A DNA stretch of 64,000 nucleotides, from contig NC_013517.1 in the NCBI RefSeq assembly GCF_000024405.1, forward strand, positions 248,001-312,000, written 5' to 3'. The notes beneath the pieces were generated by a model. The model worked only from the letters and a program-made list of their open reading frames with translations. It made no database searches and was not told where the DNA came from. Below, in pieces: positions 1 through 34,107 of the stretch; within the stretch, counting starts at the first letter, position 1, and every line of letters starts with the position of its first letter. Made by a program: the position numbers and the translations under genes. The stretch comes from Sebaldella termitidis ATCC 33386 (GTDB lineage Bacteria > Fusobacteriota > Fusobacteriia > Fusobacteriales > Leptotrichiaceae).

Positions 1-1647
1 GTTTATTACACCCTGATTTGTTACTTTGATAGGCACATTTTCTGAACCCGGAGCATATATTTGCATTCCTATTGATTTTTCACCTCTAAAATCTATAAGC
101 CCTGTAGGTTCATTTGTAAAAACATAGCTGTTTGATGAATTACTGTCAGCATCTTCATATGTGAGCATAAGTCCTATTTTATATCCGGTAAAGCCGGAAG
201 AATCTCTGGCTACGGTTATTGTCCCGCCGCCGGCAAAGGGCGGGAGATTAAGATTAAGGTTTGAACCGACAGGAAGAATAGTATTCAATGCTGCTGAACC
301 AGCTTCCTCCGCATCTGTTATCGTTTTTCTGTTTATTACCTCTCTTTTTCCCTGATTTTTACTGTAAGCAGCATCAGTCTGCACTTCAAAACCGATTACA
401 AGCGGTCCTACTAAATTCATAGTTCCGTTATTTATAAGACTTGCATTATATACATTATCAAGAGTAGCGATTCTTGAGCCACCTACTAAAAAGCTCTGGG
501 CATTCCATGATCTGCCGTTGTTTATTTCAGTAGTTTTTTGTGCAGCTGTAAGATTATTGACAGAATCAATGGTTAAGTTCGCAGTTAAAGTAGCTGAGCC
601 TCCGGGGTTGCTTGTGACACTTCCATAATCAAAATATACTTTCAGTAAAGTAGAGTTATATGATGCTGTGCTTCCCCATGAGTAACGAATAGCCGGATTT
701 CCGTTTGTTAACGCACCGCCGCCGAGATTTCCGATACTGCCTGCAGATATATTATAGTTGGTTCCGTTGCTTCCGAAAGAAATAGGATTGCCTCCAAAAG
801 GACCGCCGTCAATTCCTTTGCTGTTACAATTTGTTATCATAAAATTGCAAAAGGAACCCAGTTTTATATTAAAAACCGGAGGACTTGCTAAAACCGGAGG
901 GGTAATATTAAATGTAACCGGATTAAATTCATTCGCTGATACAGTTGGTACCTGGGGTGTTGATGGTTTCTTAACTTCCGGAATATCACTGACTTCAGGC
1001 GTCTGTATTTGAATTGTATTCGGCATTAATACAACAAATTTATTTAACTGCGGTGTGCCCACAGATATAACTGACGGAGAAGCCAGAACTTCTACATTAA
1101 CAGTTTCCGGCATTTTCGGAGTGAATAAATTGATAATTACAGGTTCAAAATTTCCAATGTTTATTTCTGGGAAGGCGATGCTTTGTAAAGGGCTAAGATT
1201 AATCGAAGCTGGTGTATTTTCATTGACAATTATTGAAGATTTGTAGACTACAGAAGCGTTTTTTAAAGATTTTTGTATACTAGAAATAATTTCCCGTTTT
1301 GCTTCGGGAATTTCTAGGGAGTACTCACTCAAATAGCTGACATGGAAATCTTTTTGAGTGGAATTTCCGCCTCTGTGAGTATTTTCATAAAAACCGGTAA
1401 AAAATACCTGCCATTCCAAATATTCGGGCTTTACAATATAGTCTGACTGTTTGTACAGATCTTTTAATTCTTTGTTTTTAGCTGTTAAAATTTTTTCAAT
1501 GATTTCATAATTTTTTTGATAAGTTAAATCTTCTGTCATAACATTATATAGTTTGTTATGATCAGAGATGGAATTTATGGTGCTCTGAGCTGATAATAAG
1601 GAACTGACAGCTATTAAAAATAAAAGCTTTTTCTTATTTTTCCACAT
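1..1647 (-). CDS. autotransporter / adhesin-like surface protein, N-terminal part (C-terminus beyond window edge)
   Basis: Open reading frame of 549 codons that runs off the left edge without a stop, so only the N-terminus is visible. The ATG follows a GGAGAG ribosome site. Residues 1-20 form a basic-plus-hydrophobic signal peptide (WKNKKKLLFLIAVSSLLSA). Next come a predicted helical stretch, then a region around residues 75-95 (VKPEYLEWQVFFTGFYEN) that resembles the tryptophan-rich segment of autotransporter-associated N-terminal domains in fusobacteria. A proline/valine-rich linker (about 145-250) and a glycine/asparagine/threonine-rich beta-helix-like passenger follow; the last visible stretch (GMQIYAPGSENVPIKVTNQG) is typical of such passengers. 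The terminal beta-barrel would lie outside the window. By inference it is a secreted surface adhesin; the ligand cannot be told. Confidence 0.72.
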   Translation of the reverse strand, partial: MWKNKKKLLFLIAVSSLLSAQSTINSISDHNKLYNVMTEDLTYQKNYEIIEKILTAKNKELKDLYKQSDYIVKPEYLEWQVFFTGFYENTHRGGNSTQKDFHVSYLSEYSLEIPEAKREIISSIQKSLKNASVVYKSSIIVNENTPASINLSPLQSIAFPEINIGNFEPVIINLFTPKMPETVNVEVLASPSVISVGTPQLNKFVVLMPNTIQIQTPEVSDIPEVKKPSTPQVPTVSANEFNPVTFNITPPVLASPPVFNIKLGSFCNFMITNCNSKGIDGGPFGGNPISFGSNGTNYNISAGSIGNLGGGALTNGNPAIRYSWGSTASYNSTLLKVYFDYGSVTSNPGGSATLTANLTIDSVNNLTAAQKTTEINNGRSWNAQSFLVGGSRIATLDNVYNASLINNGTMNLVGPLVIGFEVQTDAAYSKNQGKREVINRKTITDAEEAGSAALNTILPVGSNLNLNLPPFAGGGTITVARDSSGFTGYKIGLMLTYEDADSNSSNSYVFTNEPTGLIDFRGEKSIGMQIYAPGSENVPIKVTNQGVIN

Positions 1648-2325
1648 AATAATCTCTCCAATCAACATAAAATTTTACGTAATTAAATATTTTTTGTAAA
1701 AACTAAAAACAATGTAAAACATTTTTATTCTTTACTATAAATAAAAAATAAAAATGTGTTCGTTTAATTAAATGGTAAAAATTTAGAAAAAAAATAAAAT
1801 GTTGACTTGAAATAAAAAATATTTTTATTTAGTATATTTTTTATAAGTAATAATAGATTAAATAATATATGTGAAGATAAGTTATATTTTCTGATTAAAA
1901 TAAAACTCGGTTAAATTTTATCATATAAATAAAACAAAATCAACTGATTATATATTTAATTAAATATTGCTGTAAATTATAAAATTATATATAATGCAGA
2001 GAAAATATAGTAAAGACAATAAAAAATAATACATAAAATATCTGGATTTAAAATAACCAAAAAGTAAAAAAAGAAATGTAGATTAGTAATATAGACAGGT
2101 TAGTATGCTTTTGAATTTTTATTTTGATTAATAAAAATAGTGAGTTATTTATTTTTTTATAATTTTTTTGGATAAATAGAGTAAAGAATGAAATTTTATA
2201 ATGTTAATATATGAAGTTGATTAAGTAACTGAAAAATTAGAAATATAAAAAATAATATAGAAAAATCACATAAATAAATTTTACGATTATTTATTTATAG
2301 ATGAGGTGGAAAAAGATTCTGAGGT
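1648..2325. other. gene-free AT-rich intergenic region
   Basis: About 680 bases between the start of the autotransporter gene and the end of pgk. It is extremely AT-rich with many A and T runs and short stop-broken frames on both strands. I see no convincing small gene, RNA gene or repeat. It must contain the autotransporter promoter, but no hexamer pair stands out above the AT background. Confidence 0.6.
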
Positions 2326-2360
2326 ATAAAAAAACCATCTCATAATATGTGAGATGGTTA
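2326..2360 (-). terminator. intrinsic terminator of pgk
   Basis: Read on the minus strand, a perfect 10-bp stem AACCATCTCA/TGAGATGGTT with a 7-nt loop is followed directly by a run of T. It lies just beyond the pgk stop codon, so it ends the gap-pgk transcript. Confidence 0.9.
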
Positions 2361-2377
2361 AGATTCTTATTTTAAAT

Positions 2378-3577
2378 TTATTTATCAGAAATTGCTTCTA
2401 CACCCGGTAAAACTTTTCCTTCAAGATATTCAAGAGAAGCCCCTCCGCCTGTAGAAATATGTGTGAATTTATCTGCATATCCAAGCTGTATTGCAGCAGC
2501 AGCAGAATCTCCACCGCCTATTATTGTAGTAGCACCTTCAAGGTGTGCAATTGCTTCACATACACCAATTGTTCCTTTTGCGAAATTAGGCATTTCAAAT
2601 ACACCCATAGGACCGTTCCAAACAACAGTTTTTGCTCCGTTTAATTTTTCAGAAAAAAGCTTTATGGAATCAGCACCTATATCAAGTCCCATCCATCCGT
2701 CTTCTATAGCATCTACAGAAACAGTTTTGAACTCTGTATCATTTTTAAATTCTTTTGCAACAACTGTATCAATAGGAAGAACTAATTCTTTACCGTTTGC
2801 TTTTGCTTTCTCAAGCAGCTGCTTGGCAAGCTCGACTTTATCTTCTTCAAGCAGAGATGAACCGATGTTTTTTCCTTGAGCTTTAAGGAAAGTAAACATC
2901 ATTCCCCCGCCTATAAGGATTTTGTCTGCTTTTTCGATAAGATTTTCAATAACACCTATTTTATCAGAAACTTTAGCACCTCCTAAAATAGCAACCAAAG
3001 GTCTTGCAGGATTATTTACTACCCCGCCTATGAATTCTATTTCCTTTTCCATAAGGAATCCGGCAGCAGTCTCAAGGTGACTTGCTATTCCTACATTAGA
3101 AGCATGTGCTCTGTGAGCAGTTCCAAATGCGTCATTAACAAATACATCTCCTAAAGAAGCCCAGTATTTACCTAATTCAGGATCATTTTTAGACTCTTTT
3201 TTACCATCAATGTCTTCAAATCTTGTATTTTCAAACATCATGATTTCTCCGTCTTTTAGTTCAGAAACAGCTTTTTCCAATTCAGCTCCTCTTGTTTCAG
3301 GAATAAATTTTACAGGCTGTCCCAGTAATTCAGATAATCTTTCAGCAACAGGTTTTAAAGATTTAGAAGCTTTATCTGCTTCCTCTTTTACTTTCCCAAG
3401 ATGTGAAAAAGCGATAACTTTTCCTCCGTGCTCAAGTACATATTTAATAGTAGGCAGAGCTGCAACTATTCTGTTTTCATCAGTAATTTTTCCATCTTTC
3501 ATAGGTACATTAAAATCTACCCTCATTAGAACTTTTTTTCCTTTTACGTCTAAATCTTTAACAGTTTTTTTTGCCAT
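2378..3577 (-). CDS. pgk: phosphoglycerate kinase
   Basis: Glycolytic enzyme that transfers phosphate from 1,3-bisphosphoglycerate to ADP, making ATP in the cytoplasm. The 399-residue length is that of bacterial PGK. The N-terminal signature [10 protein letters not shown], the substrate-binding region around SHLGK, the HRAHAS motif and the C-terminal nucleotide site (GGGDSAAA, then [13 protein letters not shown]) are all visible. A longer frame starts 13 codons upstream, but the ATG of MAKKTVKDL has a GGGAGGAAA ribosome site at good spacing, so I chose it. It lies about 85 bases downstream of gap in the same direction and is probably co-transcribed past a hairpin between them. Confidence 0.97.
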
Positions 3578-3601
3578 TTTATATTTCCTCCCTGATTTTT
3601 T

Positions 3602-3635
3602 AAAAAAGCGGAACAAACAATAGAGAATGTCCCGC
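3602..3635 (-). terminator. intercistronic terminator/attenuator between gap and pgk
   Basis: On the minus strand, GCGGGACA pairs with TGTTCCGC (8 bp, one G-U) around a 12-nt loop, followed by TTTTTT. It sits between the gap stop and the pgk ribosome site, so it should lower pgk transcription relative to gap rather than end the operon; no other promoter for pgk was seen. Confidence 0.65.
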
Positions 3636-3661
3636 CTTTATATTTATGCCCTTTGTGAGAT

Positions 3662-4669
3662 TTACTTAGAAATTTCTACAAAGTACTTTAAAGTTCTTAT
3701 TAATTGTGCAGTATATGACATTTCGTTATCATACCAAGAAACTGTTTTAACAAGCTGTTTTCCGTCTACTGTAATGATTTTAGTTTGTGTAGCATCAAAT
3801 AATGAACCAAATCTGATTCCGATTACGTCAGAAGAAACGATTTCATCTTCAGTATATCCGAAAGATTCATTAGCTGCTGCTTTCATAGCTGCGTTAACTT
3901 CTTCCACAGTTGTATTTTTTCCTAAAACAGTAACTAATTCAGTAACTGATCCAGTAATAACAGGTACTCTTTGTGCTGCACCGTCTAATTTACCTTTTAA
4001 GTTAGGTAAAACAAGTCCGATAGCTTTAGCTGCTCCTGTAGTGTTAGGAACTATATTTGCCGCAGCTGCTCTTGCTCTTCTGAAGTCACCTTTTCTGTGT
4101 GGTGCATCAAGAGTGTTTTGATCTCCTGTGTAAGCATGGATAGTAGTCATTAATCCTTCTACGATTCCAAAGCTTTCATCTAATACTTTAGCCATAGGTG
4201 CTAAACAGTTTGTAGTACAAGAAGCTCCTGAAAGAACTGTTTCAGTTCCGTCTAAAGTAGAGTGGTTAACATTATAAACTATAGTTTTCATTTCCCCTGT
4301 AGCTGGTGCAGATATAACTACTTTTTTTGCACCTGCTTTTATGTGCTCTTCAGCTTTTTCTTTAGATGTAAAGAATCCAGTACACTCAAGAACTACGTCA
4401 ATTCCTAGATCTCCCCAAGGTAATTCAGCAGGGTTAGGGTTAGCGAATGTTTTGATCTCTTTTCCGTTAACAACAAAAGCCCCTTCCTTAACAGAGATTT
4501 CCCCGTTAAATCTTCCTTGTGCAGAATCATATTTAAATAGGTGCGCTAACATAGCTGCATCTGTTAAATCATTGATTGCTACTACTTCAAATTCAGGATT
4601 CTCCACCATTAATCTTAATGCTAGTCTTCCAATTCTCCCGAATCCATTAATTGCAACTTTAACTGCCAT
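3662..4669 (-). CDS. gapA: glyceraldehyde-3-phosphate dehydrogenase
   Basis: Phosphorylating GAPDH of glycolysis: glyceraldehyde-3-phosphate plus NAD+ and phosphate to 1,3-bisphosphoglycerate, the substrate of the downstream pgk product. At 335 residues it has the standard length. The Rossmann motif INGFGRIGR opens the protein, the catalytic SCTTNCLAP lies near residue 150, and the catalytic-domain signature [13 protein letters not shown] is near the C-terminus. Start ATG follows AGGAGG. First gene of a gap-pgk unit with a strong sigma70-type promoter just upstream, consistent with high expression in a fermenting organism. Confidence 0.97.
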
Positions 4670-6533: not shown

Positions 6534-7907
6534 TTACTCCTTATTTTCCTTGATATTTTTATCGTCTTCACTTGTATGATCTTCTTTTTTCATTCTGCTT
6601 ATGGCAATATAAGAAGGCAGAAAAGCTGTAATTCTTTTATTCATTGCAGATCTAAGCGGGAGAGTACCGCTGTATTTGAATTCCTTTTGGAATGAGTTAA
6701 TGCTTGTAAGCCTCAGAATAGAAAATAATCTTAGCAGAAATCCTATTATGAAAGCCAGTTTTATAGTATAAATTTTTTCACCCATCAGATAAATAAAGCC
6801 TTCATTAATAAAAGTTCCCAGAATACCTGCAAATAAACCGGCAAGCATAGCAGTGATCCCCACGACCGCAGAATAAATACTGACATATCCTTCTACAGGA
6901 TCTTTGGAGACCTCCATAAGCAGATTTAAAAAGCATAAGTTTATTGCAGTAAATCCTACAGCATCAAAGATACCTGAAAGAACAAGGGACACCTTAAAAT
7001 TATCATCTGTTAATGTGAAGTATAACAGGGCATTATAAGTGGCAAAAAATATACCAAGTCTTAAAATAGTACGATTCCCGTATTTATCTGAAAGTTTTCC
7101 GTAAATTATAAATAAAAACATAGAGATAACAGCAGTAAGAACACCTATGTTAGCGAGAAACCGCGGATCAGAACCTAATGTTTTTACTCTGAAATATTCA
7201 AAAAACGGTTTCAAAAACTCCAGTGAAAACAACCAGACAGATACAAATTTCAGGTAAGTGATAAAATCCTTGTTTTTAAAAATTTCTTTATAGCTGATTT
7301 TTTGCGCTGTAGGCTTAAAGTCAGGAATATGGTGTCTGTTCATAAGAAAAATGGTGCTTACAGCTGATATAGCTATTGACAGGGATAAAATAAAATATCC
7401 CGTTTTTTTATCAGGCATAGCAAGAAAGATACCATAAATCAGAGTGAAGAAAATAGAGGAGATAGAAATAAAGAAATTTCTCTTTCCAAAATATTTTCCT
7501 CTTTCTTTGTTGTTTATAATTTCTACCATTGCAGCAGTCCATGTATTGGTAACAAAAGGTGCAAACAGCGAATAAATAAGTATAATTGCTGTATAGATAT
7601 ATGGATTTCTCAGATCCAGAAATACTGCAACAGGAAGAAAAATCATTGATGTTCTTGAAATTATTATAGAAACCATCAGAGTTTTTTTTCTGGTCTTAAA
7701 GAGGGCATATAGTTTTTTGGTGAAAATTTGGAGTACCTGAGTAGCTGTCGGCAATATAGAAATAATTGCTATAAAAAACGGATTTGCATTAAAATATAAT
7801 GCAAGATTAAGCATAATAAATCCTTGAGTACTCAGATACATACCATTAAAAAATATACCTTCTAAAATGGAAAACTTTTTAGTTTCTCGAACAGCAGTCT
7901 CAGTCAA
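6534..7907 (-). CDS. major facilitator superfamily transporter
   Basis: Integral membrane protein of 457 residues with about 11-12 hydrophobic segments and short basic loops, including an MFS loop 2-3-like stretch ([15 protein letters not shown]) and a loop 8-9-like stretch ([17 protein letters not shown]), the classic D-x(3)-G-[NR]-[RK] signature. The charged tail ([12 protein letters not shown]) is cytoplasmic. Start is a TTG seven bases after AAGGAGG; no nearer ATG fits. Sandwiched between a ROK sugar kinase and ispF with 2- and 16-base gaps. The neighbour suggests sugar transport, but nothing in the sequence fixes the substrate. Confidence 0.85.
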
Positions 7908-25705: not shown

Positions 25706-28700
25706 ATGAAATATCTTAAGAAAACAATAGTAGTATTTATTCTCCTTTTAATGGTTATAACAGGAGTAGTCACATATATTAACAGTAAATTGTTCAGCAA
25801 AGATATTCAGGGTATTATAAAAAGTCTTAATCTTGATATAAAAGTAGGAGATGCAAAGTTTGTAGGCTATGGTAAAATAAAAGTCACTGGACTGGTTCTT
25901 TATGACAAAGAGAAAAGGCCTGCAATCGAAGCAGACGAAGGTTACATATACATTAATCCGCTTAGTATATCCAGAGTCAGAAAAATAGATGTATATTCCC
26001 CAAATGTAATTCTGGAAAAGCAGGATGGAATGAAATTTAACATTGTGGAGATGTTTTCAGGGGAATCTGATAAGATAGACAGAACCTCAAGGATAGGCAG
26101 GATTAATTTTTATAATGCAAAACTGGACTACAGGGATACTTCATATAAGAAACTTATCCAGAAAAATCTTGATAATGTAAACGGATATGTAAATTTTAGC
26201 AAAGCTAAAGGTATATCCCTTGAAGCTGCAGGAAATAATGATGATGAGAAAATAGGAGTGGTACTGAAAATATTTCCTTCCCAAAAGAAATCACCGGAAG
26301 CATTTTTGCAGAGAAAGGCAATCCGTGAGAATAAAATATATTTTGAGCTGAATTTTGATAAATTCAGAATATTTCCCGAGGCAGTACAGTATGTTCCGTT
26401 TGAAGGACTGGAAGTTTATGACGGAAAAATTTCGGGAAAGCTGAAAATGGAACTTAACAAAAAGTTTTCAGGAAATCTGAATATCGAAAATGGTACATTA
26501 AAATATGTAGATTATGATGAAATTTTGAAAAATGTAAATGCTAATGTAGTGTTAAAAGACAATAATGTAGATATAGCAACAGGAGCAGAGCTTAACGGAG
26601 GAAAGCTCGATCTGGGTATAAAGTTTCTGGAAAAGACAAAAACAGTTAAGCTGGCAATAAAATCAGATAACATGGATTATTCGGATATTAGAAAATATAA
26701 ACTTGTTAAGGAACAGAATATAGAAGCTTTTGGAAGGATAACAGGGACTTTTAATGCAAATCTGGATTTAGACAAAAAGATATATGAATTTGACGGCTTT
26801 TTATCTTCTCCGAATCTGCAGTACAGCGGTTATAATTTTCGGAATCTGAAAACTAATCTGGTTTATGATAAAAACAGTATTTTGACTCTGAGCAATATAA
26901 GCTTCGGCTTTAATGAAACTATATCCGATATTCATATAGCAGCAGATGCAAGAGCTTTGTTTTCATATAATACAAAGCTGAAAGCAGGAAGCGGTACGTA
27001 CGAACTGGATAATAAAGGGTCTGATTTCAGTATAAAGAAAATAAACGGAAATTTTGAAATAGATAAAAATAATGTGGTAAGAAGTGACTTTTTCTCTGAA
27101 GAAGCAGATGGGAATTTTGCTTTTGACACAAAAAATAAATTACTGGAAATAAGTACAGGAGGAAAACAGTATTTTGACCTGAAATATGGGGAGAATAAAT
27201 TTACATTAAAGCCAGTAATACGAAATCTGAAAATCAGTCTGGATAAATTTCTTCTGGTTTCGGGAGCTGCTGATATAGACATAGCAAAAAACGAATATTT
27301 TGATACAGCAAGAGTGTCGGCAATAGTAAGAAACGGAAATTTTGATGTAAATGCTGCGGCAGCTATAAGCGGACAGAATGTAAGAGCGACAGGGACTACT
27401 GACAATAAATTTAATCACAGATACAAAGTAAGCGGTTCAAATGTAAGAATAAAGCCGCTTCTTGACAGATTCGGCATAAAAGTTGCCGGAATGGAACAAT
27501 CGGATCTGGTAACTGATTTTAATGCTAATATATACGGCAGCGGCGCAAACTTAAAGGGAGACTTTAATATTGCCAGTCAAAGAGGAAAATACTTTGTGGA
27601 ATATGAGAAATTAAATGTAAGCGGAAATATAGAAGACCTTCTAAAAGGAAGACTTCAGGCAAAGGTAAATGCAGGGGAAATATGGCTGAATTATCAGCGT
27701 TTTAAGAACCTCAGCGGAGATGTGAAATATGAAAATAATGTAATTACACTGACAGATTTTAAAAATGAAGATTTAAATGCCAATGTATCATTTAATATAA
27801 AGGATCAGTATGTTAATCTTAATGCACAGATAAATAATTATGTGCTTTATAATGTAAGCAAGCCTGAGTTTAACCTGAAGCTCTTGAAACTTGACGTAAA
27901 TCTCAGCGGAAATGTAAACTCACTTAATGGTTCTATGTTTATAAGTCCGTCAATGGTAACGATAGATAACAGATACAGCGGAGAGCTGAAAGGTAATGTA
28001 GATGTAAGAAACAGTGTCTTGATTCTGGATCAGCTTGCTTGGAGAAAAAATACGCTGAAAGGAACATACGATCTAAATACACAGACAGCTGATGTTTATG
28101 TACATATAGATGAGGAGAAGCTTGAAGAATTATACGGCATGGATAATATTATTGTTTCCCTGAACAGTGATCTGAGACTTCAGGGAAGACTTGATGACTT
28201 CACCATAACGGGTGATATTAATATAGGACATATGCAGTATGGGGATATAAAGCTTCCGGCAGTGGAATCTGTCATAGCTTATAAAAACGGCGACATAAAA
28301 AGTATTCTTAAAAAGGGAAGTCTTGAGGTATCGAAGTTTATACTCAGAGGTGAAGAAGGAGAGGAAATACTTCATACAAGTACGAAAATAGATGATCTGT
28401 CAACATCACAGCTGGATTTTGTACTTAATGATAAAGAATTGGATCTGACTTCAATAAAAGGATTCAAGGAAAAAGGCTATACCGGAATTATAAATTATTC
28501 ACTTATATTGAGAGGAAATATAGACGACTTCTTTGTGGATATAAAAGCTGAGAGTGATAATTTCAGCGTATCAGGATTTAGTTTTAATAATCTGTCAATA
28601 GATGCACAGATCAATAATAAGGGTCTGAATATAGGACAGTTATATCTGGAATATGAAAATAACCCGCTTCTGGTAAATGGTTATGTAACATTCACACCGA

Positions 28701-30217
28701 TAGATTATAATATAAATGTTCTTGCCGAAAACTTTAATCTTGATTTCCTAAAAGCAGGAAACGGAATGAAGGATGCAGGCGGAATAGCGAATCTGGATGT
28801 AACATTTACACCTGAAAATACATCAGGGATTATTGATCTTCAAAATTTTGTATTTAAAGATCAAAAGGGGAATGTGGATATATCTGAATTAAATGCCAAT
28901 ATAGATATTAATAACAGAAAATTGGTAGTTAATAATTTTAGCGGAAACTATAACGGCGGAACTGTTAATATATCAGGTAACCTGGATGTGCCGGGACTTG
29001 CTGCTGATTTTGCGGATAGTAAAAAGCTGGATCTGGGAGACTTTGATCTAAGAATAACACTGGATAAAACAAATATTAAGTATGGTAAGACATTCGACGG
29101 CGTACTGTCAGCAGATCTGTCATTTACCGAGAAAGAGCTTTTGGGATCTGTAATTGTGGATAAAGGTAAGATTGCTGATATATCTCAGTTTATAGGTGAT
29201 AAAAAAGAAGAAGAGGAAACTTCCGGAAAGAAAAAAGAAAAGTCTATAATTGACGGATTGCAGAGTGAAATAGTAGATATCATAATGGGGCAGTATTCTG
29301 CCAACATAAGAATAAATATAATGAAAGGAATTGATCTGGAAATACCTAGTGTAAGTCTTGTAAGAAATATAAGAGGTGTTCTGAAGGGTGAAGGTGTAAT
29401 AATGCTTAACTCCGGAAATATCTCAGCATCTGGAGATTTCTACGTAACAAAAGGTAAATTTACTTTAAGCGACAGAAATTTCGTTCTGGATCAGGCAGAG
29501 TTTTATTACGGCAGCGGCGGTTTCTCAGGATCAGAAATAGGAAATCCTTTTGTAGTAGTACTTGCTACCACAAATATAAACAATGATCAGGTAAGTGTAA
29601 GTATTAGCGGAAACTTAAGTGATCCTCAAATAAAGTTTAATTCAAGTTTAGGATTGAGTCAAGAACAAATATTAGCATTATTGATTTTTGATGCCAGAAC
29701 TGCTGAAAATAGTGAATTTGAATCAAGAGATCAAAATCAGCAGTTAGGAAATCTTGCAGATCCTATATTAAATCAATTGATTTTTGGTTCCGTAATTGGT
29801 ACAATAGAAGAAACTTTTGGATTATCTGCAGTATCTCTGAGAACAAATGTACAAACTCAGAGTACGGATAAAAATGCAAATGGTCAGGACTTTGGAGCAA
29901 CAATAGCACCATCTGTATATATCCAGGATAATCTGTATAAAGACAGATTATACTGGAATGTTGAATTAGGTTATGGAGAAGAAAGCACGGCAAGTGCTGG
30001 ATTAGATTATAATTTCTGGATTACTTATAAGGTAAGCGAAAAATTTGGAGTAAATTTAGGATTACAAAATTTAAGAGGAAATGACAGCCTTGTAGATAAG
30101 ACAGACTATTATCTGGGTGTGGAATTTTCCACAAGGTTTTATACTTTTGGAGATTTTTTAAAGAGTCTCAGAAAACCTAAACTGGAAGTTATTCCTGAAC
30201 AGGATAAACTAAAATGA
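25706..30217 (+). CDS. tamB: TamB-like translocation and assembly module / AsmA-like inter-membrane protein
   Basis: Long 1503-residue protein anchored by an N-terminal transmembrane helix (about 7-25, IVVFILLLMVITGVVTYI). The body is an almost unbroken series of amphipathic beta strands (repeated patterns such as LNVSGNIEDLLKGRLQAKVNAG), matching the beta-taco groove that spans the periplasm. The C-terminal TamB/DUF490 domain (about 1200-1500) has NIRGVLKGEGVIMLNSGNIS and SVSISGNLSDPQIKFNSSL followed by LSQEQILALLIF, its family hallmark. It probably carries phospholipid to, or helps fold proteins in, the outer membrane. bamA starts 14 bases later, so the two are one transcriptional unit. No TamA gene is present; BamA would be the partner here. 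Confidence 0.9.
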   Translation: MKYLKKTIVVFILLLMVITGVVTYINSKLFSKDIQGIIKSLNLDIKVGDAKFVGYGKIKVTGLVLYDKEKRPAIEADEGYIYINPLSISRVRKIDVYSPNVILEKQDGMKFNIVEMFSGESDKIDRTSRIGRINFYNAKLDYRDTSYKKLIQKNLDNVNGYVNFSKAKGISLEAAGNNDDEKIGVVLKIFPSQKKSPEAFLQRKAIRENKIYFELNFDKFRIFPEAVQYVPFEGLEVYDGKISGKLKMELNKKFSGNLNIENGTLKYVDYDEILKNVNANVVLKDNNVDIATGAELNGGKLDLGIKFLEKTKTVKLAIKSDNMDYSDIRKYKLVKEQNIEAFGRITGTFNANLDLDKKIYEFDGFLSSPNLQYSGYNFRNLKTNLVYDKNSILTLSNISFGFNETISDIHIAADARALFSYNTKLKAGSGTYELDNKGSDFSIKKINGNFEIDKNNVVRSDFFSEEADGNFAFDTKNKLLEISTGGKQYFDLKYGENKFTLKPVIRNLKISLDKFLLVSGAADIDIAKNEYFDTARVSAIVRNGNFDVNAAAAISGQNVRATGTTDNKFNHRYKVSGSNVRIKPLLDRFGIKVAGMEQSDLVTDFNANIYGSGANLKGDFNIASQRGKYFVEYEKLNVSGNIEDLLKGRLQAKVNAGEIWLNYQRFKNLSGDVKYENNVITLTDFKNEDLNANVSFNIKDQYVNLNAQINNYVLYNVSKPEFNLKLLKLDVNLSGNVNSLNGSMFISPSMVTIDNRYSGELKGNVDVRNSVLILDQLAWRKNTLKGTYDLNTQTADVYVHIDEEKLEELYGMDNIIVSLNSDLRLQGRLDDFTITGDINIGHMQYGDIKLPAVESVIAYKNGDIKSILKKGSLEVSKFILRGEEGEEILHTSTKIDDLSTSQLDFVLNDKELDLTSIKGFKEKGYTGIINYSLILRGNIDDFFVDIKAESDNFSVSGFSFNNLSIDAQINNKGLNIGQLYLEYENNPLLVNGYVTFTPIDYNINVLAENFNLDFLKAGNGMKDAGGIANLDVTFTPENTSGIIDLQNFVFKDQKGNVDISELNANIDINNRKLVVNNFSGNYNGGTVNISGNLDVPGLAADFADSKKLDLGDFDLRITLDKTNIKYGKTFDGVLSADLSFTEKELLGSVIVDKGKIADISQFIGDKKEEEETSGKKKEKSIIDGLQSEIVDIIMGQYSANIRINIMKGIDLEIPSVSLVRNIRGVLKGEGVIMLNSGNISASGDFYVTKGKFTLSDRNFVLDQAEFYYGSGGFSGSEIGNPFVVVLATTNINNDQVSVSISGNLSDPQIKFNSSLGLSQEQILALLIFDARTAENSEFESRDQNQQLGNLADPILNQLIFGSVIGTIEETFGLSAVSLRTNVQTQSTDKNANGQDFGATIAPSVYIQDNLYKDRLYWNVELGYGEESTASAGLDYNFWITYKVSEKFGVNLGLQNLRGNDSLVDKTDYYLGVEFSTRFYTFGDFLKSLRKPKLEVIPEQDKLK

Positions 30218-30231
30218 ATTTGGAGGTAATT

Positions 30232-32283
30232 ATGAAAGGAAAGTTATCATCAATTATAATTGTGATGGTTATACTTATTTTGGCAACATTTAATATTCAA
30301 GCCGCAGAAAATAACGAACTGAGGGTTAGAAATATTCTCATCTCTAACTTAAGGGAACTGCCAAGAGAATTAGTAATGAGCAAATTAAAAATAAGAGAAG
30401 GAGAAACATACAGTACAAAGAAAATAAGTGATACTTATCTGGCTCTTAGGGAATTACCCTACATCAATGATGCTAACTTTTACACACAGGTAGAAGGCGA
30501 CAATATAGATATCAGAATAGAAGTAGATGAAATGCCTAATGCGCTGGAAATAGCGAAAAGGGAAGAATCAAGAGAAGAGCTTAGTAAAAAAACTGAATTT
30601 ATAATATCAAATGTAAGTATAACAGGATTACAGTCTCTGAAAGAAGCTGATTTCATAAAAGACATTCCTCTTAAAACAGGAGAGTTTTTTGTGCCGCAGG
30701 ATGCCATAGACGGAGCTTCAAAATTATTTAATTCAGGATACTTCAGTAGTGTAGAGCCTAAGGTAGTTAGAGGAGCAGATAATACTATCAGCATAGAATA
30801 CGTTGTTGAGGAAAATCCTAGAGTAAATAATATTACAATAGAGGGAAATACAATATTTACTGAAGCAGAATTATTAAGTGCCCTTGAGGTAAAAAAGGGA
30901 GATATTCTAAATATAGAGAAAATGGATCCTTCTAAAAACGGTGTAATCAAAAAGTATCAGGACAGCGGTTATACTCTGGCAAGAATTGATGATATGAAGC
31001 TTGATGACAGCGGAAATGTAAGAATAATCCTTTCTGAAGGTACAATTGAAGCAATAGAATACAGAAAGATAGGTAAGAAAAGAGAAGGTGAAAGAAGAAC
31101 ACCAAAAAGTACAGATTTAAGAACTCAGGATTATATCCTTGAAAGAGAAACAAGAATGAAAGTAGGGGAAATTTTTCAGAGGGATAAAATGGAACAGACA
31201 ATAAGAAATATATACAGAACAGGACTTTTTACATCAATACAGCCTAACTTTAAACCAAGTGCTACAGATCCTAACGGAAGAATAATAGAGATGGAGGCTG
31301 AAGAAAGACCGGCAGCATCTATTAACGGTAATATATCATACGGAACTTCAGTAGGATTCTTAGGAGGTATTAACTATACAGATTCCAATTTCCTCGGAAG
31401 AGCACAGGAATTCAAAGCAGCTATTGAAATTTCAGATGAAGGTGACCAAACATATGAAATAAGTATTTTTGATCCTTGGATAAGAGGAACGGAAAGACTT
31501 CAGGCAGGAGCAAGTATTTATTACAGACAGACAGAAGATGACGATGCTAACGGAACAGATTTATATAAAGTAAAAAGATACGGTACAAGATGGACACTTG
31601 GACAGGGACTTAACGACGACATATACGTAAGAGGGGCAATCAGATACGAAGATGTTAAGGAATATTACAGAAGTGGTGCTAAAAGAGATGACTATGACTT
31701 AGTAGCTTTTACTCCGACAATTACATATGACACAAGAAATAACAGATTTAGTCCTCAAAAAGGTTTATACTTAAGTTTAAGTGATGAAATAGGTAAAATA
31801 GTATCAGATCACAGAAGCTATAATCAGTTTGAAATTGATTTGAGAGCATATCACAGAACATTCTTTAAAGATAAGAATACAATGGCATATAGAGCAGTTT
31901 GGGGAACAACAGGATCAGAAACACCGGAAGCACTAAGGTTCAAGATGGGTGGAGCAGACTCTATAAGAGGATATGATTATGGTGACTTTGAAGGATATAA
32001 CGAATTTTACTTTAACGTGGAAAACAGAACACAGGTAACTAACAGTATACAGGTAGTAGCTTTCTTCGATATAGGTAATGCTTGGCAGACTAATGATAAA
32101 AAACCTGACAGAGACGGAGCAGATAAATTTAAAGATCTGAAATCCGGAGCAGGAATAGGAGTAAGAATATTAACACCTGTAGGACCGCTAAAATTTGACT
32201 ATGCATGGCCGCTTGATATAGCACCTGGAGATTCCAAAAAAGATAATGGTAAATTCTACTTTAACTTTGGGCCAAGCTGGTAA
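30232..32283 (+). CDS. bamA: outer-membrane protein assembly factor BamA (Omp85)
   Basis: Inserts beta-barrel proteins into the outer membrane. Signal peptide (about 1-24) ends at FNIQA. Four POTRA-like repeats can be outlined (about 28-105, 120-195, 196-270 and 271-355), one fewer than in E. coli. A 16-strand barrel follows from about residue 360 with SIRGYDYGDFEG, the conserved RG[FY] loop-6 motif, near residue 577. The last strand ends ...FYFNFGPSW, a terminal aromatic beta-signal. An ATG six codons upstream overlaps the tamB stop, but the ATG after GGAGG is the proper start. lpxD follows, without the skp gene that often lies between. Confidence 0.95.
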   Translation: MKGKLSSIIIVMVILILATFNIQAAENNELRVRNILISNLRELPRELVMSKLKIREGETYSTKKISDTYLALRELPYINDANFYTQVEGDNIDIRIEVDEMPNALEIAKREESREELSKKTEFIISNVSITGLQSLKEADFIKDIPLKTGEFFVPQDAIDGASKLFNSGYFSSVEPKVVRGADNTISIEYVVEENPRVNNITIEGNTIFTEAELLSALEVKKGDILNIEKMDPSKNGVIKKYQDSGYTLARIDDMKLDDSGNVRIILSEGTIEAIEYRKIGKKREGERRTPKSTDLRTQDYILERETRMKVGEIFQRDKMEQTIRNIYRTGLFTSIQPNFKPSATDPNGRIIEMEAEERPAASINGNISYGTSVGFLGGINYTDSNFLGRAQEFKAAIEISDEGDQTYEISIFDPWIRGTERLQAGASIYYRQTEDDDANGTDLYKVKRYGTRWTLGQGLNDDIYVRGAIRYEDVKEYYRSGAKRDDYDLVAFTPTITYDTRNNRFSPQKGLYLSLSDEIGKIVSDHRSYNQFEIDLRAYHRTFFKDKNTMAYRAVWGTTGSETPEALRFKMGGADSIRGYDYGDFEGYNEFYFNVENRTQVTNSIQVVAFFDIGNAWQTNDKKPDRDGADKFKDLKSGAGIGVRILTPVGPLKFDYAWPLDIAPGDSKKDNGKFYFNFGPSW

Positions 32284-32297
32284 AAACTGGAGGAGAA

Positions 32298-33308
32298 ATG
32301 TATCATATAAATGAGATTTCAAAATTAATAAATGGAAAGATCATAGGGGAGGATAACTTAGAATTTTCTAAGTTATCTCCTTTTTTTGAAGCAGATCCTG
32401 AGGATCTCACATTTGCAGCTGATGAAAGCATGCTGAAAAATATAGCCGGGACAAAGGCAAAAGCAGTTATAGTTCCTGTTATGGAGGAGTATCCTGACGG
32501 AAAAGCTTATATTGTTTTGGAACAAAATCCAAGAAATGTTCTTCCTATACTTCTTAATTTTTTTAAACCAAAAATGCAAAAACCTGAAAAACAAATAGAG
32601 GACAGCGCTAAAATAAGTGAAAATGTCCTGATAGGGATAAATTCATATATAGGGCATAATGTGGAAATAGGAGAAAATACTGTTATTCATCCCAATGTAA
32701 CTATTATGGAAGGTGTAAAAATAGGGAAGAACTCTATAATATATTCCAATGCAGTAATAAGAGAGTTTTGTGTATTGGGAGAAAATGTAATATTACAGCC
32801 GGGAGCAGTGATTGGTGCAGACGGTTTTGGTTTTATAAAAGATAAAAACGGCGATAATGTAAAAATAGAACAGATAGGAAATGTTATTCTTGAGGATAAT
32901 GTAGAAATAGGCGCTAATTCATGTGTAGACAGAGGAGCCATAGGATCTACAGTTGTAAAAAGAGGTACAAAAATAGATAACCTTGTTCATATTGCCCATA
33001 ATGATATAATAGGAGAAAATTGTTTTATAATAGCACAGACAGGAATTTCCGGAAGTGTAGAGGTAGGGAATAATACTGTTCTTGCCGGACAGGTAGGAGT
33101 AGCAGGGCATTTGAAAATAGGAAATAATGTAGTGGTAGCAGCGAAATCCGGAATTACCAATGATATACCGGATAACTCGAAAATGTCAGGTTACCCTTTA
33201 AGACCGCATATGGAAGACCTTAGAGTAAAAATGTCTATGGGTAAAGTTCCGGAATTGATTAAAAGGGTAAAAAAACTGGAAAAATTATTAAAAAATGAAG
33301 AAAAATGA
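32298..33308 (+). CDS. lpxD: UDP-3-O-(3-hydroxyacyl)glucosamine N-acyltransferase
   Basis: Third step of lipid A synthesis, adding the N-linked acyl chain. The uridine-binding N-terminal domain (about 1-95) leads to a left-handed beta-helix of hexapeptide repeats (about 100-300: IGINSYIGHNVEIGENTVIH and so on). The catalytic His234 sits in VHIAHNDIIG, and a C-terminal coiled helix (RVKKLEKLLKNEE) trimerises. Length 336 fits the family. It proves that this diderm makes lipid A, in keeping with rfaE1. Its first codons also form a terminator-like hairpin (separate entry). Confidence 0.95.
   Translation: MYHINEISKLINGKIIGEDNLEFSKLSPFFEADPEDLTFAADESMLKNIAGTKAKAVIVPVMEEYPDGKAYIVLEQNPRNVLPILLNFFKPKMQKPEKQIEDSAKISENVLIGINSYIGHNVEIGENTVIHPNVTIMEGVKIGKNSIIYSNAVIREFCVLGENVILQPGAVIGADGFGFIKDKNGDNVKIEQIGNVILEDNVEIGANSCVDRGAIGSTVVKRGTKIDNLVHIAHNDIIGENCFIIAQTGISGSVEVGNNTVLAGQVGVAGHLKIGNNVVVAAKSGITNDIPDNSKMSGYPLRPHMEDLRVKMSMGKVPELIKRVKKLEKLLKNEEK
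32348..32387 (+). terminator. terminator-like hairpin inside the start of lpxD
   Basis: A 14-bp stem (GGAG plus ATAACTTAGA pairing with TCTAAGTTAT plus CTCC, one bulged G) with a 4-nt loop, followed immediately by seven T. It has every mark of an intrinsic terminator but lies within codons 17-30 of lpxD. It could end part of the tamB-bamA transcripts unless ribosomes translating lpxD melt it. Confidence 0.65.
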
Positions 33309-33448: not shown

Positions 33449-34087
33449 ATGAAAAAGATTTTTTTTCTGATCATAATATGCCTGTTCATGGTGAGTTGTG
33501 GAAAACAGGCAGATAATACCGTGGAGAAATTTATAGACAACATTAAAAATAAAAAAATTGATGCAGCTATGAAATATGTCAAAAATGAAGATGTTGCTAA
33601 AAACATGGAAATAATGGAGATATCTTATAAAAATAAAACACAGGAAGCTATTTTTGAAGCACTCTTTAAAAATATGAATTATAAAGTACTTCAGACAAAA
33701 AAAGAATCAGACGAGCTGACTATAGTGAAAGTAGAAATAGAAAATGTAGATATAAAAGGTGTTTTTATGAGACTGTTTGAAGAGACAATACAGGATATGT
33801 CAGCAGGCGGCGAAGGATCAAAAGCAGATGATCACAGTTCACTGGAGAAGAAACTCATAGAAATTCTGAATGATAAAAATGTACCTAAAATAAAAGCTGT
33901 GACTGAATTTGCAGTTTATAATACAAAAGAAGGCAATAAAATAGAGCTGACTCCGGATAATGTGAATATTATGTTCGGGCAGATTTCATCACTCGGAGGT
34001 TTTGCAAAATCAGATGAAACTACTGAAGAAAAAAAGACGGAGCCTGAGGATATTCAGCCAAAACCACAACCAATGCAGAAAAAATAA
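33449..34087 (+). CDS. predicted lipoprotein of unknown function
   Basis: A type II signal peptide with lipobox LFMVSC (Cys17) anchors this 212-residue protein. The N-terminal half (about 20-110: DNTVEKFIDNIKNKKIDAAMKYV...TIVKVEIENVDIKGVF) has the shape of small NTF2/DUF4878-like lipoproteins: a helix pair followed by beta strands. The C-terminal tail (about 185-212) is rich in Pro, Glu, Lys and Gln and probably disordered. Single gene bounded by its own promoter and a strong terminator. The family guess is weak; no catalytic motif is visible. Confidence 0.75.
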   Translation: MKKIFFLIIICLFMVSCGKQADNTVEKFIDNIKNKKIDAAMKYVKNEDVAKNMEIMEISYKNKTQEAIFEALFKNMNYKVLQTKKESDELTIVKVEIENVDIKGVFMRLFEETIQDMSAGGEGSKADDHSSLEKKLIEILNDKNVPKIKAVTEFAVYNTKEGNKIELTPDNVNIMFGQISSLGGFAKSDETTEEKKTEPEDIQPKPQPMQKK

Positions 34088-34107
34088 GGCACATAAGTGC
34101 CTTTTTT
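34086..34107 (+). terminator. intrinsic terminator of the lipoprotein gene
   Basis: GGCAC-ATAA-GTGCC followed by TTTTTT, starting at the stop codon of the lipoprotein gene. Confidence 0.92.

Follow-up and report, generated by a model that had tools for sequence, protein, structure and literature searches.

Intrinsic terminators between the genes of one transcription unit can attenuate the downstream gene, as the frdD terminator of Escherichia coli does for ampC, where ribosome loading nearby is thought to reduce termination. Within coding sequence, selection should remove strong intrinsic terminators, above all near gene starts, where protection by ribosomes is weakest. When an intrinsic terminator was placed 30 bp inside an operon open reading frame (ORF; tR2 constructs) in E. 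coli, it kept most of its efficiency, with an effect of translation of about 10% (PMC4824070). A Term-seq study of Fusobacterium nucleatum ATCC 23726 (GSE249955) describes terminators within operons that lead to uneven expression of the operon genes and that can be overcome by the sigma-E small RNA FoxJ, and it names bamA and skp as part of the sigma-E regulon (PMC11005410). Here we describe a hairpin of the intrinsic-terminator type within the first codons of lpxD in Sebaldella termitidis ATCC 33386, located in a 64,000-nucleotide stretch of DNA (the window) at positions 248,001–312,000 of the 4,418,842-base chromosome (assembly, 4,486,650 bases). We propose that the start of lpxD probably doubles as a conserved, ORF-embedded intrinsic terminator that limits read-through from tamB-bamA(-skp). 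Paired codon changes, many of them silent, have preserved the hairpin in 17 genera, so lpxD very probably contains an internal brake on its own expression that is under selection.

A terminator-type hairpin in the window's lpxD

The host gene and the parts of the hairpin are as follows, in window coordinates.

32298–33308, + strand: lpxD, UDP-3-O-acyl-glucosamine N-acyltransferase, the gene that hosts the hairpin (ORF list; NCBIfam TIGR01853, 364 bits versus a cut-off of 242)
32345–32362, + strand: 5' arm of the terminator hairpin, A GGGG AG, the bulged G32352 and AUAACUUAGA, in lpxD codons 16–22 (fold, synonymous null, covariation)
32363–32366, + strand: four-nucleotide loop, AUUU (fold)
32367–32383, + strand: 3' arm, UCUAAGUUAU CUCC, its last three weak pairs overlapping the U-tract (fold, covariation)
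32381–32387, + strand: U-tract of seven T, spelled by the Pro-Phe-Phe codons CCT TTT TTT (sequence)

The whole element (32345–32387) spans lpxD codons 16–30, and the part at 32348–32387 spans codons 17–30. An upper stem of 10 bp (32353–32362 with 32367–32376) stands on a lower stem of 4 bp, three of them G-C (32348–32351 with 32377–32380), with a single bulged G (32352) between the two; the core therefore has 14 pairs, and three further weak pairs are possible (32345–32347 with 32381–32383). The initial annotation of this DNA had claimed a 14-bp stem, a four-nucleotide loop and seven T at codons 17–30, which sequence and fold bear out except that the bulged G interrupts the stem. The minimum free energy (MFE) of the hairpin is −19.9 kcal/mol (z = −3.6 versus dinucleotide shuffles), and against synonymous recodings that preserve the residues the natural sequence folds at −18.8 versus a mean of −6.7 (z = −3.7, P = 0.005). 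Two features of an intrinsic terminator are present: a stable stem-loop with basal G-C pairs, and a U-tract directly after the stem (T7 in the window and T5–T8 in all genomes with the hairpin). A consensus terminator scan placed the lpxD site among the terminator-like sites of the region, and the hairpin is oriented for lpxD transcription, since the opposite strand has no T-run after the stem. Rfam covariance models gave no match to positions 32100–32700 at E values up to 1. A mobile or repeated palindrome was considered and rejected, because the exact 12-mer of the arm occurs in the genome only at these two arms.

Terminator-like hairpins of this strength are rare at the beginning of genes. 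With simple ORF calling, we sampled 464 kb of the window genome (369 genes) and 400 kb of genome G042 (314 genes), and in each sample lpxD alone had a terminator-like hairpin early in the ORF that reached −14 kcal/mol (683 genes in total); mid-gene control positions in both samples held no terminator of that strength. On the same measure, the lpxD site scored −17.2, and gene 3' ends of −16 kcal/mol or better numbered only 8 of 369 in the window genome and 5 of 314 in G042. The suggestion that the hairpin equals true terminators in quality was thus right in assigning it terminator grade but understated its strength. We found no earlier report of an in-frame lpxD terminator in the open-access literature, with most subscription papers outside that search.

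Two other early-ORF terminator-like hairpins of −10 or better occurred in the Sebaldella sample, at −12.7 (L114, minus-strand ORF 138–4575) and −10.8 (L106, minus-strand ORF 7046–7388, which may not be a gene). Further along the window, a perfect 7-bp stem flanked by A/T tracts at both ends (34086–34103) is terminator-like on both strands and lies 3' of the gene at 33449–34087, which is next after lpxD and has no Pfam match.

Conservation and paired codon changes in Fusobacteriota

We found lpxD in 85 of 98 Fusobacteriota genomes and extracted the gene start from 84, representing 24 genera. For each genome, the 17 codons ending at Pro-Phe-Phe were compared with 400 synonymous recodings based on the codon use of its own gene and genus. 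The natural sequence folded far better than the recodings in 64 genomes from 17 of the 24 genera, including both main families, with 63 of the 64 at P ≤ 0.05 and genus mean z scores from −1.9 to −5.2 (for example, −23.9 natural versus −7.3 recoded in G042, and −31.8 versus −17.4 in the GC-rich G044). In a sliding scan along lpxD using one genome per hairpin genus, strong folding appeared here only (mean z = −3.9, 17 of 17 below −2), with z near zero across the rest of the gene. The stem ends exactly at the T-run in all 17 genera, and in G070, where the Pro at the site is replaced by Ser, a 9-bp lower stem is nevertheless retained. Among 80 lpxD genes from phyla other than Fusobacteriota, the mean z score at the matching place was −0.08 and none encoded Phe-Phe there. 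The hairpin is neither chance nor peculiar to the window genome; it is the rule in Fusobacteriota, not an oddity of the tamB-bamA-lpxD order as had been supposed.

The pairing itself has been maintained by coordinated substitutions. Across 50 distinct sequences and a fixed structure of 19 pairs, we counted 107 double-change cells versus 44.5 ± 5.1 after shuffling (0 of 500 shuffles reached the observed value), and the covariation score was 0.352 versus at most 0.147 when partners were slid. The clearest covariation links the silent third bases of the Lys codon (AAA/AAG) before the conserved Gly and of the Pro codon: among 56 hairpin genomes with Lys and Pro at these codons, 44 carry AAG-CCC, 12 carry AAA-CCT and none is mixed, and genomes lacking the hairpin show no such third-base link. 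On an LpxD tree built with the hairpin columns excluded, the four independent third-base switches all occur together, although four are too few for a significant sign test alone. Codon choice at the site is also unusual, with CCC at the hairpin Pro in 23 of 24 genomes of genera g15 and g17 but at none of the 241 Pro codons elsewhere in their lpxD genes. In an alignment-free permutation among genera, 5' arms paired with the 3' arm of their own genus at −20.4 kcal/mol versus −13.4 ± 0.8 for other pairings (P = 5 × 10^−5). RNAalifold recovered only four basal pairs from all 50 sequences, since the register of the upper stem differs from genus to genus; neither the fixed-structure count nor the genus permutation depends on a single register. 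The initial annotation had proposed looking for loss of pairing in relatives that keep the amino acids, and the opposite is seen, with paired synonymous changes retaining the pairing in 17 genera; the exception is the 13 genomes of genus g3, which keep Phe-Phe but lose the pairing.

These comparisons leave almost no probability for an origin by chance, or as a by-product of the amino acids and AT-rich codon use. The motif Gly-Asp/Glu ... Ser/Ala-Pro-Phe-Phe does give some complementarity on its own, as seen in the null mean of about −7 kcal/mol, but the energies of −14 to −32 in most hairpin genomes, the single peak along the gene, the paired silent changes and the rare codons refute this explanation. 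We regard the structure of the hairpin, its position, selection on it at the RNA level and its restriction to Fusobacteriota as established.

The hairpin is not universal within the phylum. No excess folding was detected at the site in the 13 g3 genomes (mean z = −0.05), in g11, g23 and g25, or in the deep branches f2, f3 and f6. In g3 (G005, G014, G019, G022 and G024–G032) and in G013, the terminator is gone and Phe-Phe is retained; the gap between bamA and lpxD in the hairpin-less g3 is 88–202 nucleotides, and no terminator was found in it. In g23 and g25, which form one clade, Phe-Glu replaces Phe-Phe and the hairpin is absent too. Parsimony gives four gains or losses, with the root not fixed. 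Since it occurs in both main families, the hairpin is probably old in the order and was probably lost in g23/g25 as well as in g3 and the neighbouring g11. The gene itself was not matched at E ≤ 1e−60 in G006, G007, G008, G010, G015, G016, G017, G020, G023 and G060; within the window's family, lpxD seems to have been lost from several small genomes (genera g4, g5, g6 and g8), which suggests loss of lipopolysaccharide (LPS).

Operon context and a second hairpin in Fusobacteriaceae

The neighbouring features in the window are as follows.

25706–30217, + strand: tamB, first gene of the apparent operon (ORF list; Pfam TamB)
30214–32283, + strand: bamA (Omp85/POTRA), the gene 5' of lpxD (ORF list; Pfam Omp85/POTRA)
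32289–32295, + strand: Shine-Dalgarno sequence GGAGGAG of lpxD, free of hairpin in the window's genus and buried in Fusobacteriaceae (sequence, fold comparison)

As the initial annotation stated, the hairpin gene comes just after bamA, which ends at 32283, 14 nucleotides before lpxD starts at 32298; this gap is 13–14 nucleotides across the window's genus, which shares the order bamA-lpxD. Fusobacteriaceae have the order bamA-skp-lpxD, the extra gene being OmpH/Skp by Pfam, with 12–41 nucleotides between skp and lpxD. At L022 and L032 (genomes G009 and G021), an ORF of about 177 codons that looks foreign and on visual inspection resembles an acetyltransferase lies between bamA and lpxD, and the in-frame hairpin is still present.

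In Fusobacteriaceae, the Shine-Dalgarno sequence of lpxD and the adjoining spacer pair with codons 8–11. The resulting hairpin, seen at L034 and in other members of the family, extends from about −25 to codon 12 and contains up to 14–19 bp (for example, in G075 and G070). Codons 8–11 use CTC or CTT for Leu where TTA is usual, and outside this site only 1 of 242 Leu codons in g15 is CTC. Every Fusobacteriaceae genus with the terminator pairs more strongly here than the synonymous null (mean z, −1.8 to −5.9), the pairing appears in the MFE structure of 54 of 54 such genomes, and own-genus partners pair at −14.0 versus −11.3 ± 0.5 under genus permutation (P = 5 × 10^−5). In folds of representatives, the start region is closed by one clean hairpin and the terminator forms a second. 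Conserved, covarying pairing that buries the Shine-Dalgarno sequence was therefore found in Fusobacteriaceae only: it is absent from the window's genus (z = +1.1) and also from g23 and g25, the two Fusobacteriaceae genera without the terminator. Pairing of the Shine-Dalgarno sequence with the 3' arm had a small effect (0.8 kcal/mol, P = 0.005 by genus permutation). A candidate antiterminator, in which codons 8–11 pair with the 5' arm, reached z scores of about −2 against the synonymous null in many Fusobacteriaceae and was not seen in the window's genus; with P = 0.08 in the genus permutation, we do not claim a classical antiterminator.

Probable mechanism, rival explanations and known systems

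RNA polymerase arriving from tamB-bamA (tamB-bamA-skp in Fusobacteriaceae) would meet the hairpin and U-tract at lpxD codons 16–30. A fraction of polymerases would stop there, giving bamA(-skp) mRNA a proper 3' end, and the remainder would read through, so that lpxD output would fall below that of the outer-membrane assembly (Bam) genes. The promoter of full-length lpxD must lie 5' of the start codon, and therefore every full-length lpxD transcript crosses the site. In Fusobacteriaceae, the second hairpin, right after the skp stop, may also restrain lpxD translation; untranslated RNA there would let the terminator form, and we hypothesize that ribosomes finishing skp could open the Shine-Dalgarno hairpin. 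We infer from sequence that termination occurs in vivo, that some fraction reads through and that the purpose is to adjust the amount of lipid A acyltransferase relative to the Bam machinery, while tuning by ribosome loading or by a small RNA of the FoxI/FoxJ type is speculative.

Several points weigh against the terminator. Loss of the hairpin in g3, g11, g23, g25 and three deep branches means that it is not essential, and Phe-Phe must also have a protein role, since g3 keeps it without the hairpin. The T-run of genus g16 ends with TTC and so has only five T, and the main text of the F. nucleatum Term-seq paper does not mention lpxD (PMC11005410). Moreover, genera were grouped by presence or absence of the hairpin post hoc, with the flat profile of the rest of the gene and the genus permutation as controls. 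Selection at the RNA level also does not reveal which function is selected, and the hairpin might instead serve as a pausing site for ribosomes or RNA polymerase, or in mRNA protection or processing, with the T-run simply the needed Phe-Phe codons, for which the retention of Phe-Phe in g3 would speak. We consider this improbable, because the stem ends exactly at the T-run in 17 of 17 genera and the A-tract, GC stem and U-tract are of the terminator type, whereas a plain pausing or stability hairpin could sit anywhere in the ORF and no other position of lpxD is folded; the joint absence of Phe-Phe and hairpin in g23 and g25 points the same way but comes from one clade. It is more doubtful still that the terminated RNA, consisting of the bamA or skp 3' end and some 90 nucleotides of lpxD, is a product in its own right, for instance a small RNA derived from the 3' end. 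Small RNAs encoded within ORFs are known from E. coli (PMC7815308), and fusobacterial small RNAs act in the sigma-E response, which includes bamA and skp (PMC11005410); at lpxD, however, it is the pairing that is conserved and not the loop or seed sequence, and Rfam has no match.

A special form of terminator is a translation-gated switch, in which read-through depends on the delay before a ribosome engages lpxD; the Shine-Dalgarno hairpin of Fusobacteriaceae would be opened by ribosomes that finish at the skp stop codon, and lpxD would be made only when the Bam/Skp genes are translated. The family-wide presence of that hairpin in terminator genomes, its own-genus fit, its location 18–40 nucleotides past the upstream stop codon and its absence from the terminator-less g23 and g25 are consistent with such a switch, but it is lacking in the window's own genus, the antiterminator pairing is unsupported by genus permutation and a terminator at a like distance in E. 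coli was changed only slightly by translation (PMC4824070). We hold gating to be possible, at less than even odds. The lpxD terminator may be coupled to translation state, and the Shine-Dalgarno hairpin makes such a link more plausible in Fusobacteriaceae. The broader idea of a phylum-level two-hairpin riboregulator, in which lpxD expression depends on translation of the preceding Bam/Skp genes, seems rather unlikely; if true, LPS synthesis in Fusobacteriota would be linked to the assembly of outer-membrane proteins or else to sigma-E small RNAs.

An in-frame hairpin of terminator type has been retained across two families despite its cost in the rarest codons (CCC and CTC) and matched silent changes. 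If termination is confirmed, Fusobacteria would fix the proportion of lipid A acyltransferase to Bam machinery through sequence inside the gene, whereas in E. coli lpxD shares a single operon with bamA and skp. The site offers a testable example of attenuation within the reading frame of an essential gene, in bacteria associated with human disease, and scans limited to 5' leaders miss in-frame elements of this sort.

Compared with frdD/ampC, where the terminator lies in the leader before ampC, the lpxD terminator is inside coding sequence, also spells protein and is kept across much of a phylum. The tR2 constructs resemble lpxD in carrying an intrinsic terminator less than 100 bp into an operon ORF, and the tR2 site works although the ORF is translated; they are artificial, whereas the lpxD site is natural, selected and conserved. 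The tR2 result (PMC4824070) favours a working terminator in lpxD yet speaks against a strong effect of translation, which makes a fixed BamA:LpxD ratio as likely as a translation sensor. The terminators countered by FoxJ (PMC11005410) are intergenic, between operon genes, unlike the in-frame lpxD terminator; those activated by FoxJ carry a guanine stretch that pairs with its C-stretch, and the lpxD 5' arm holds GGGG. Translational coupling through a Shine-Dalgarno hairpin resembles Fusobacteriaceae lpxD in that the start region is paired with its own early codons after an upstream stop, but here the hairpin is stacked directly before a terminator in the same ORF and is absent from the window's genus. 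The lpxD site would act like an attenuator but falls outside the classical definition, in which the terminator lies between promoter and start codon, being inside the ORF and having at most a candidate switch.
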